The position numbers and the translations under genes are program-made. A DNA stretch of 64,000 bases from Pyruvatibacter sp. HU-CL02332 (GTDB taxonomy: Bacteria > Pseudomonadota > Alphaproteobacteria > CGMCC-115125): assembly GCF_040362765.1 (NCBI RefSeq), contig NZ_BAABWK010000001.1, forward strand, positions 1,899,501-1,963,500. The letters run 5' to 3'. Below the pieces are notes generated by a model. It was given only the letters and a program-made list of their open reading frames with translations. It had not been told where the DNA came from and ran no database searches. Positions 9,979 to 34,217 of this stretch are shown in pieces. Numbering within the stretch: the first letter of the stretch is position 1; the number at the start of each line of letters is the position of its first letter.

Positions 9979-10485
9979 CTACCCCTGCAACTCCTTGAGC
10001 AACTCTGCCAGTAGCTCCATGCCGCTGCCCCAGCCTGAATCGAGGCCGGCGATGGCGCCTTCGAAGCAGGTGAGTTCTGCCTCAGTCGCCTCGTGGGGTG
10101 ACCAGGTGAGGCGCATTTTGGTTTTGCCGCCTGCCTCTTCAAACGTCACCGTGGTGAGCAATATGCGGGGCCAGTCCGGCATCATGGGGTTGGCGGCGAT
10201 GTTCCACTCGGCATCGGTGTTGGACATCAGCATCACCAGTTTTTCCGGCGGCGAGACTTCCGTGTATCTGGATATCTGATAGCCCGAACCTTGGCTCATG
10301 CGCATCTCGTTGCGCCAGACGCCGCCGACGCGCACATCCAGCTCGTGGATGACGGTTTCGACGTTGGGGCCGTACCAGCGGGCGAGGAGCTCGGGGTCGG
10401 TCCATGTCTTCCACACCATCTCGCGCGGCGCATCGAACTCTCGGTCGAGAATGTAAGTCGGCAACTCGTTCATTTGGTCGCTCAT
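9979..10485 (-). CDS. SRPBCC/AHSA1-domain protein
   Basis: START-like (Activator of Hsp90 ATPase homologue 1) domain protein of 168 residues. The N-terminal REFDAPREMVWKTWTDPELL and LARWYGP, and the late LTWSPHEATEAE segment are typical of this fold, which forms a hydrophobic ligand cavity. It overlaps the upstream ArsR gene by 4 bp (ATGA), so the two are co-translated. Such pairs are common and the ligand is normally unknown; no enzymatic role can be assigned from sequence. Confidence 0.88.
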   Translation of the reverse strand: MSDQMNELPTYILDREFDAPREMVWKTWTDPELLARWYGPNVETVIHELDVRVGGVWRNEMRMSQGSGYQISRYTEVSPPEKLVMLMSNTDAEWNIAANPMMPDWPRILLTTVTFEEAGGKTKMRLTWSPHEATEAELTCFEGAIAGLDSGWGSGMELLAELLKELQG

Positions 10486-10850
10486 TTTGTTGGTCCTTGT
10501 TGTGTGGCGTTTTTCATGTCGTCGAGCAGGTCATCCAGCTGGTCAAAGCTTGCCGACCAGAAATGTCTGAACTCTTCCAGCCACGTCACGGCCGCCGCCA
10601 TGGGCGCGGCTCTGAGGCGGGCGGGGCGGCGCTGGGCGTCAATATCCCGCTCCACAAGACCTGCGCGCTCCAGCACCTTGAGATGCTTTGAAACGGCGGG
10701 CTGGCTCATGGCAAATGGTGTCGCCAAATCGTTGACCGATGCCTCACCGGTAGCGAGGCGCGTCAGGATCGCCCGGCGGGTCGGGTCCGCGAGGGCGGAG
10801 AAGATGGCGTCAAGGTTTTGCGGCTGGGTGCCAAGGTTGATCTGTTCCAT
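10482..10850 (-). CDS. ArsR-family winged-helix repressor
   Basis: DNA-binding regulator of 122 residues. The core reads IFSALADPTRRAILTRL, then the recognition helix AMSQPAVSKHLKVLERAGLV (about residues 45-65). No metal-binding Cys pair is seen, so it belongs with the SdpR/ydfF-like group that pairs with AHSA1 proteins. ATG 10850 is preferred over the GTG at 10856. No Shine-Dalgarno is visible, and an A/T-rich -10-like box lies just upstream, so the mRNA may be leaderless. A palindrome covers the start, pointing to autoregulation. Confidence 0.88.
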   Translation of the reverse strand: MEQINLGTQPQNLDAIFSALADPTRRAILTRLATGEASVNDLATPFAMSQPAVSKHLKVLERAGLVERDIDAQRRPARLRAAPMAAAVTWLEEFRHFWSASFDQLDDLLDDMKNATQQGPTK

Positions 10851-10864
10851 AACCACATGGTTAT
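10849..10864. promoter_or_regulatory. Palindromic operator over the ArsR start codon
   Basis: Arms ATAACCA and TGGTTAT (7 bp each, 2-bp spacer) overlap the start codon and abut TATATA on the minus strand. A repressor bound here would block transcription and initiation. Binding by the adjacent ArsR is inferred. Confidence 0.6.
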
Positions 10865-11840: not shown

Positions 11841-11875
11841 AAAAATCTATCCCCGGTCTTTTGAGCGGGGGGATA
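11840..11875 (-). terminator. Rho-independent terminator reading on the minus strand
   Basis: TATCCCC (11848-11854) pairs with GGGGATA (11869-11875). On the minus strand the hairpin is followed by GATTTTTT; on the plus strand no T-run follows. It would end a minus-strand transcript coming from the gene-free stretch to its right, or read-through from divL. Confidence 0.6.
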
Positions 11876-12225
11876 ATGCAGGCATCTCCCGCCACAAGGG
11901 CAGCCGGGCCGTCCGGGCTTGGGCGGGGGAGCGAATGCCTGGAAGCAGGAAGGTATGGGTCGCGCGGCCTAAGCCATTTCTGTGCGGCGGCAGCGAGTAA
12001 CGGGCGCTGTGGCTAGAGAGGCGGTGACGGTTCGGCCCGGCGCACAAAGTAAGATCGCCCCGGTGGACCTGCATGCATGGCAAGGCGCGAGGACTAGCCC
12101 ACGCTTTGAATGCATGTGTGACCGGTAGCAGGGCTGCGGCGGAGCAAAGCGGGTAACACCCGTACCGCCGGTTCTATTGGCACCGAAGCATGTTCGCGTG
12201 CGGAGCGTCTGAGGACTGCCCCATT
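11846..12225. ncRNA. Candidate structured non-coding RNA, family not recognised
   Basis: No credible gene occupies 11841-12465. The stretch contains nested helices: 11879-11893 with 11922-11941 (two stacked 7-8 bp runs, inner AGCCGG/CCGGGCT); 11972-11976 with 12010-12014 enclosing 11991-11995/12005-12009; 12060-12064 with 12121-12125 enclosing ATGCAT/ATGCAT; and 12138-12142 with 12165-12169 enclosing CGGGT-AAC-ACCCG. Unpaired parts are purine-rich on the plus strand (GGAAGCAGGAAGG, CAAAGTAAG, GAGCAAAG), and TTGGCA-N17-AATCTA at 11821 could be a promoter, both favouring plus. The terminator at 11840-11875 favours minus. RNase P, tmRNA, SRP, 6S and cobalamin hallmarks were sought and not found. 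Confidence 0.45.
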
Positions 12226-12369
12226 GTTTGATTAATCGCATGAGCCTTCGCAGGCCTCAGGCGCTCCCACTCCCTTGCCCGCGTCAGGGCGTTTGGGACG
12301 AGACGGAATGGATACCGGCGGCAGAGCTTCTGCGTGCGGATGCTGGCGGCTGCCTTTTTAACCCCGTAT

Positions 12370-12388
12370 CCCCGGACTTGATCCGGGG
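12370..12388. repeat. REP-like palindrome, copy 4
   Basis: CCCCGGACTTGATCCGGGG preceded by CCGTAT, identical in core to the copy at 5346. It and the next copy lie in opposite orientation downstream of divL. Between the RNA candidate and this element (12226-12369) I see nothing else. Confidence 0.85.
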
Positions 12389-12429
12389 GCCACTCTCGGC
12401 CGCTGTGCAGTTGATCGGTAGCGAGTAGG

Positions 12430-12448
12430 CCCCGGATCAAGTCCGGGG
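12430..12448. repeat. REP-like palindrome, copy 5 (inverted)
   Basis: CCCCGGATCAAGTCCGGGG, the reverse complement of copies 1 and 4, 18 bp past the divL stop on its 3' side. Together with 12370-12388 it makes a larger inverted pair that could form a 3' mRNA hairpin. Confidence 0.85.
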
Positions 12449-12465
12449 GCACGGCAATTGAGGGC

Positions 12466-34140: not shown

Positions 34141-34217
<77 letters not shown>

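Follow-up and report, generated by a model that had tools for sequence, protein, structure and literature searches.

Evidence for a multicopy family of folded noncoding RNAs in a small alphaproteobacterial genus

Does a stretch of bacterial DNA that folds into several strong helices, and seems to encode no protein, hold the gene of a stand-alone RNA, and if so, which strand is read and to what family does the product belong? The question is raised by a locus in a 64,000-nucleotide stretch (the window) of the genome of Pyruvatibacter sp. HU-CL02332. A first-pass annotation had described a structured RNA at 11846-12225, with nested strong helices, no plausible protein and no known family. That description held in part: the helices and the lack of both an Rfam family and a protein stood, the extent and the clue to a promoter did not, and the repetition of the element had been missed. 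What looks like a genuine plus-strand structured RNA gene of about 400 bases in the window is one of nine copies in its own genome (G000), eight of which lie outside the window. Its confident core is now placed at 11847-12274 (plus strand), perhaps reaching about 12359; across copies the core is about 370-490 nt long, with maybe 85 nt more at the 3' end.

Copies, distribution and shared positions

A search of the G000 genome with 11841-12465 (625 bases) returned 78 matches, the majority in a REP-like inverted-repeat pair at 12362-12454, which is a separate dispersed repeat that adjoins the RNA. Such pairs (CCCCGGACTTGATCCGGGG) are abundant in G000 and adjoin several RNA copies, some upstream and some downstream. 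The remaining matches were parts of 11841-12160 recurring at several loci, and upon reading of these loci they resolved into the nine copies, four almost identical to one another and five, including the window copy, divergent. With R1, a covariance model built on the 5' domain, nine strong matches were obtained in G000 (E 2.8e-22 to 7.6e-16), the next standing at E 0.019. Across 59 genomes, its own included, R1 matches were confined to four genomes of the genus, which represent the order among the genomes examined: G000 with nine copies, G001 with ten (one of them degenerate), G002 with four (three of them cut by contig ends) and G003 with eight, 31 copies altogether. Three of these genomes are complete, and G002 is fragmented. 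The relative with eight copies is probably "Candidatus Phaeomarinobacter ectocarpi" Ec32, with which Pyruvatibacter, its cultured relative, presumably shares a genus. In the accessible part of the main text of the Ec32 genome paper (PMC4110880) the words "non-coding" and "repeats" are absent, and within the open-licence literature no paper on this RNA was recognised by its title or the start of its abstract among the matches listed.

A second covariance model (R2), built from 28 of the 31 copies, was run on a sample of 385 genomes of the class and matched strongly in the same four. Among the other 381, four genomes had a single match each (E 0.0018-0.0077), about what chance provides for 385 genomes at E 0.01; the core motif followed by GTAAC was not found in these four regions, and the matches were rejected as family members. 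A pattern spanning P3a to P4 matched three of the 385 genomes, all of the genus, and no controls. Searches with blastn, using one copy each, gave no match in phage and plasmid records, and a viral pattern scan gave none. A short palindromic pattern, run across genome contigs, hit at least 119 stretches in many unrelated phyla and was taken for chance. An RNA with this fold in 8-10 copies appears to be limited to one small alphaproteobacterial genus.

The positions of the copies are largely shared among genomes. When flanks were compared as separate records, all eight Ec32 copies paired with G000 copies by both flanks; the window copy corresponds to position 263412 of Ec32 and also, through its downstream flank, to G001 position 2588340. 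None of the eight Ec32 copies corresponds to the G000 copy at 466896, whose downstream flank pairs with the degenerate G001 copy (G001:C1:603926-604020, L166, corresponding to G000:C1:466896), whose degeneration is a sign of possible copy decay. Immediately upstream of copy 466896 lies a gene (L016:1531-2388) whose match to an Eco29kI-type restriction endonuclease is weak and falls below the cut-off. In the tree, the nine G001 copies that entered it group as a single clade (97/95), although two of them occupy positions common to other genomes; two within-genome pairs of short copies are supported, and the remaining branching among short copies lacks resolution. Near-identical copies also occur within G000 and within G003. 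Shared positions combined with within-genome clades indicate that several positions are old and that within genomes the copies have been made alike in sequence, probably through gene conversion.

Comparative evidence for the fold and its strand

Structure was assessed on an alignment (A3) of 27 of the 31 copies, all full-length, from which the three G002 copies cut by contig ends and the degenerate G001 copy 603926 were left out. A consensus of 127 pairs was obtained from base-pair probabilities averaged over copies, with helix P2 enforced. In this alignment 76.8% of cells pair, against 69.7% in shuffled and 38-44% in slid controls. Changes on both sides occur in 73 of the 127 pairs (53.9 shuffled, 30-46 slid), double-change cells number 315 (140.0 shuffled, 79-124 slid), and the covariation score is 0.262 (0.155 shuffled, 0.075-0.107 slid). 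No shuffle out of 500 equalled the observed values on any of five measures. The compensatory changes thus exceed the controls, and the strong helices of the first-pass annotation are confirmed. Because the consensus was scored on the sequences from which it was derived, and because related sequences inflate the shuffled control, the cross-group test, which lessens this circularity, weighs most. In this test a structure derived from one group was scored on the remaining ones: the G001 structure gave 71.0% pairing there, that of the short group 68.3%, that of the window pair 66.2%, that of G002_204 66.3% and that of the G1306 pair 63.3%, against 36-48% for their slid versions. The G001 structure gathered 117 double-change cells against 32-61 slid, a clear margin, and the G1306-pair structure 144 against 58-117, a small one. 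The 27 sequences, all from one genus, cluster into a few sets of near copies, so the effective sample is small.

Folding energy is weak as sole evidence, and the comparative evidence is decisive. For 11841-12361 the folding z is -2.66 on the plus strand and -0.01 on the minus strand, and for a 402-base core -1.43 and +0.40; over nine copies the plus-strand values run from +0.24 to -3.21 and are unremarkable in some. The strand, which had been left open, leans clearly to plus. The proposed pairs contain 393 G-U cells and 165 A-C cells, an excess that favours plus in part because folding was done on that strand. In cross-group prediction, minus-derived structures (52.5-60.1%) fell below plus-derived ones (66.2-71.0%) in four of four trials. 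The lower folding z lies on plus in six of nine copies and on minus in three.

The predicted fold, in which a P1 hairpin is followed by a P2-closed domain holding P3-P8 and by a 3' hairpin, P9, is supported by covariation, P2 chiefly by conservation. P1 occupies 11885-11930 (helices 1 and 2). Its outer pairs changed on both sides in 8 of 13, with 83.8% of cells paired, and its inner CCGG.CCG.CCGG stem is near-invariant, four of six pairs never varying. The 5' strand of P2 (helix 3), GCGAATGCC at 11931-11939, pairs with 12188-12197; 88.3% of its cells are paired in the consensus that enforced it, and one of its nine pairs shows a both-side change (G-C to A-U, in four copies, columns 71/372). 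The predicted P3/P3a arm (11945-11983, helices 4-7) is missing from the short group of eight copies. The share of paired cells in its helices is 94.7, 52.6, 26.3 and 85.5%, which leaves the middle of P3 weakly supported. P4 (11988-12014, helix 8) is a hairpin with a 9-base loop, AGTAACGGG, at 11996-12004, in which GTAACG is almost invariant in A3; seven of its eight pairs changed on both sides, and 81.3% of its cells are paired.

The central domain (12022-12185, helices 9-15) consists of P5 with P6 and P7, followed by P8 and P8a, with 61.1 to 88.4% of cells paired and P7 the lowest (61.1%). P8 and P8a (12137-12170, helices 14 and 15) have both-side changes in 3/5 and 7/10 pairs and 87.9 and 64.9% of cells paired, and P8a, which like P7 is weakly supported, is capped by a loop of the GGTAACRCC type at 12151-12161. 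In many long copies (e.g. L039, L037) the P3a loop CUUGGGAACG is complementary to the P7 loop CGUUCCAAAG at all but one position; in the window copy these loops read UCGCGC and GCGCGA. The two might form a kissing interaction, but a cross-pairing matrix separates true from mismatched partners poorly, so the idea is no more than a lead. In long copies, the stretches GAGUAACG and UGGGAACGUG from the loops of P4 and P3a resemble adjacent stretches of alphaproteobacterial 16S rRNA, a likeness that is probably due to chance; a small-subunit rRNA search found none in the G000 genome, but it missed the Caulobacter control too.

P9 is a long 3' hairpin at 12198-12270 (helices 16-18, in which 80.0, 94.4 and 64.4% of cells pair). 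Its inner part is weak, both at the 64.4% helix and at the small helices 19 and 20 (66.0 and 44.2%). A C-rich tail, ACTCCC at 12269-12274, follows P9 in A3 and ends the confident core; CTCC lies within the final nine bases of 24 of the 27 aligned copies. A tentative hairpin, P10, with a T run (12355-12359) occupies 12315-12359 on the plus strand as a possible transcript 3' end. Hairpins and then a GCGGAG..TTTTGG-like stretch are found 3' of several copies, not all, and a terminator scan did not match P10 or its T run.

The promoter-like box and coding potential

A box at the -35 place, CTATCCCCGG at 11847-11856 on the plus strand, is common to most copies and appears, from its sequence, to be a promoter-like element conserved as DNA. 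The exact form YTATCCCCGG is present in 20 of the 31 copies (8/9 in G000, 8/8 in G003, 4/4 in G002 and 0/10 in G001), and the G001 copies have a TTTTCCCCGG-like box. A -10-like hexamer, GATAAT, lies 15 bases past the box at 11872-11877, with a predicted start near 11884. The hexamer (C/G)ATA(A/C)T occurs in 28 of 31 copies, spaced 15-16 bases from the box. In the whole G000 genome the combined pattern of box and -10 occurs six times, always at family copies, and the reversed control has no occurrence. No promoter was scored at the box in a scan with the sigma-70 consensus; the box, if a promoter, is therefore of a non-standard type. The promoter originally suggested, a TTGGCA-N17-AATCTA box, was not found upstream of the orthologue.

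In the window, the plus-strand box is overlapped by a hairpin (TATCCCC/GGGGATA, 11848-11875) with six T after it on the minus strand, which had been read as a minus-strand terminator. The hairpin is real in the window but is not general to the family, since in 5 of 31 copies the minus strand carries a hairpin with a folding energy of -8 kcal/mol or lower and then at least five T; a simple terminator scan found none. Such hairpins may end minus-strand transcripts at some copies and are no family-wide property. One over the box could possibly also serve as a shield against transcription on the minus strand.

No conserved protein was found in the element, as the earlier reading had held. The window copy contains open reading frames of 90 and 78 aa on the minus strand and 59 aa on the plus strand, and a 92-aa minus-strand frame overlaps its 3' end; the eight other copies overlap frames of 109-196 aa (seven antisense, one sense) that were judged to be chance. 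Three of eight orthologous pairs, the window pair included, differ by 1- or 2-base indels. In the five indel-free pairs, 12 antisense frames are open for at least 80 codons and show no general third-position excess. In all 12, non-synonymous changed codons outnumber synonymous ones, and in one frame 11 of 20 changes fall at position 3. A coding gene is disfavoured by the indels in three pairs and by the substitution pattern in the other five.

Competing explanations and the proposed role

The conservation of both the fold and the promoter-like DNA supports a family of folded RNA genes. The explanation that we favour, with modest confidence, is a new family of noncoding RNA genes that stand alone and are read from the plus strand, whose products act in trans as protein-binding scaffolds and whose copies are probably gene-converted. 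Transcription from the box at 8-10 genes would yield a high dose of one RNA, which would fold into the P1 hairpin, the P2-closed domain holding P3-P8, and the P9 3' hairpin. This RNA would act in trans on its protein partner, and the likeliest contact sites would be the nearly invariant GUAAC loops in P4 and P8a. A scaffold is preferred over seed pairing because the conserved parts are the helices and two short loops, not long unpaired runs; this is a preference, not a demonstration.

The strongest competitor, which we consider possible but unlikely, is a multicopy base-pairing small RNA, resembling LhrC, Qrr or the rhizobial alpha-r-like RNAs, that would act on mRNAs through an unpaired seed. 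LhrC and Qrr are much shorter and act by their seeds. Multicopy sibling small RNAs of this kind are known, and in the accessible parts of their descriptions LhrC and Qrr have several copies per genome, as the element does. The C-rich tail after P9 could, for example, cover G-rich ribosome binding sites, and its CTCC is widespread, but 3 of the 27 aligned copies lack it. Compared with LhrC and Qrr, moreover, the element has a core of 370-490 nt that is mainly paired and is closed by the long-range P2, and its longest near-invariant unpaired run, in the P4 loop, is only about six bases. CsrB/RsmX decoys, which bind protein and are multicopy in some species, were also considered and are disfavoured, since CsrA (PF02599) had no match in the G000 genome; PF02599 matched 3 of 14 controls.

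The near-identical copies within G000 and within G003, the nine-copy clade of G001 and the REP-like repeats beside several copies would suit a non-autonomous mobile repeat, whose structure would serve its own spread, for instance with a reverse transcriptase or transposase supplied in trans, with no benefit to the cell. We regard this as rather improbable, given that every Ec32 copy occupies a shared position, that pairing is kept in divergent copies and that neither phage nor plasmid records matched. A REP or BIME element moved by a RAYT was rejected, the Y1 transposase (PF01797) having no match in the G000 genome and matching 5 of 14 controls.

A diverged form of a known structured RNA (RNase P, 6S, tmRNA, SRP, HEARO/omega or a group II intron piece) is very improbable, even though the element is large and folded. 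RNase P RNA of type A is a large folded RNA with GGUAAC-capped hairpins, a trait that it has in common with the element; the element differs in having no match to RF00010. The sole match to Rfam 15 at gathering score in the whole window is a tRNA at 34141-34214, outside the element, and at lax limits the window copy and 11 loci gave sub-threshold matches alone, mostly to microRNA models and none credible, which agrees with the absence of a known family noted at first. In the genome, RNase P RNA (RF00010) has its single match at C1:386612-386983, away from all copies, and 6S RNA (RF00013) at C1:661802-661959, likewise elsewhere. ARAGORN found no tRNA or tmRNA genes in nine copy-bearing loci. 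Stand-alone omega RNAs exist; HEARO and omega RNA had no Rfam match in the window or in the 11 loci. Of the 18 nearest flanking ORFs at nine loci, the 17 scanned with Pfam (the left ORF of L011 was left out) encode no IscB/TnpB-type nuclease, and one has a below-cut-off RE_Eco29kI match.

The neighbouring genes bear on the last alternative. The gene downstream of the RNA is co-directional at five of nine loci and opposite at four, among them the window locus, where it is convergent. A Pfam scan of eight of these nine genes assigned them to unrelated families: MarR, zinc-binding dehydrogenase, histidine phosphatase, GFA, isopropylmalate dehydrogenase, short-chain dehydrogenase, sodium/proton exchanger and PAS histidine kinase. 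An ArsR-family regulator is also encoded in the window (10482-10856, minus strand), and the ORF that follows it (9979-10485, minus strand) is presumably an SRPBCC/AHSA1 protein. That the RNA is a cis-acting, riboswitch-like leader of its downstream gene is hardly credible, since the co-directional loci that would permit it are set against mixed orientations and unrelated downstream families. The mixed orientations and unrelated families of the neighbours, together with the covariation and the lack of an Rfam match, support the original proposal of a stand-alone, unassigned structured RNA.

Among the closest analogues of the favoured scaffold RNA are OLE, GOLLD and ROOL, which, in the accessible part of a published account (PMC12286853), are likewise large folded bacterial RNAs without a protein product. 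The element may act as a folded molecule as they do. It differs from them in having no Rfam match, and hence no membership by sequence or by structure, in its 8-10 chromosomal copies per genome and in its occurrence in one genus.

Few large structured noncoding RNAs are known in bacteria, and many of them were discovered through being widespread. In this family the 8-10 copies, their largely stable places and the signs of concerted evolution hint at selection on dose. More speculatively, the homogenised copies might constitute a lineage-specific RNA machine, supplying an abundant RNA-protein particle or an RNA oligomer with a cell function peculiar to the order. If true, the family would allow the function of such RNAs, and the origin of a new one, to be put to the test, and its covariance models and alignment could become a public family.
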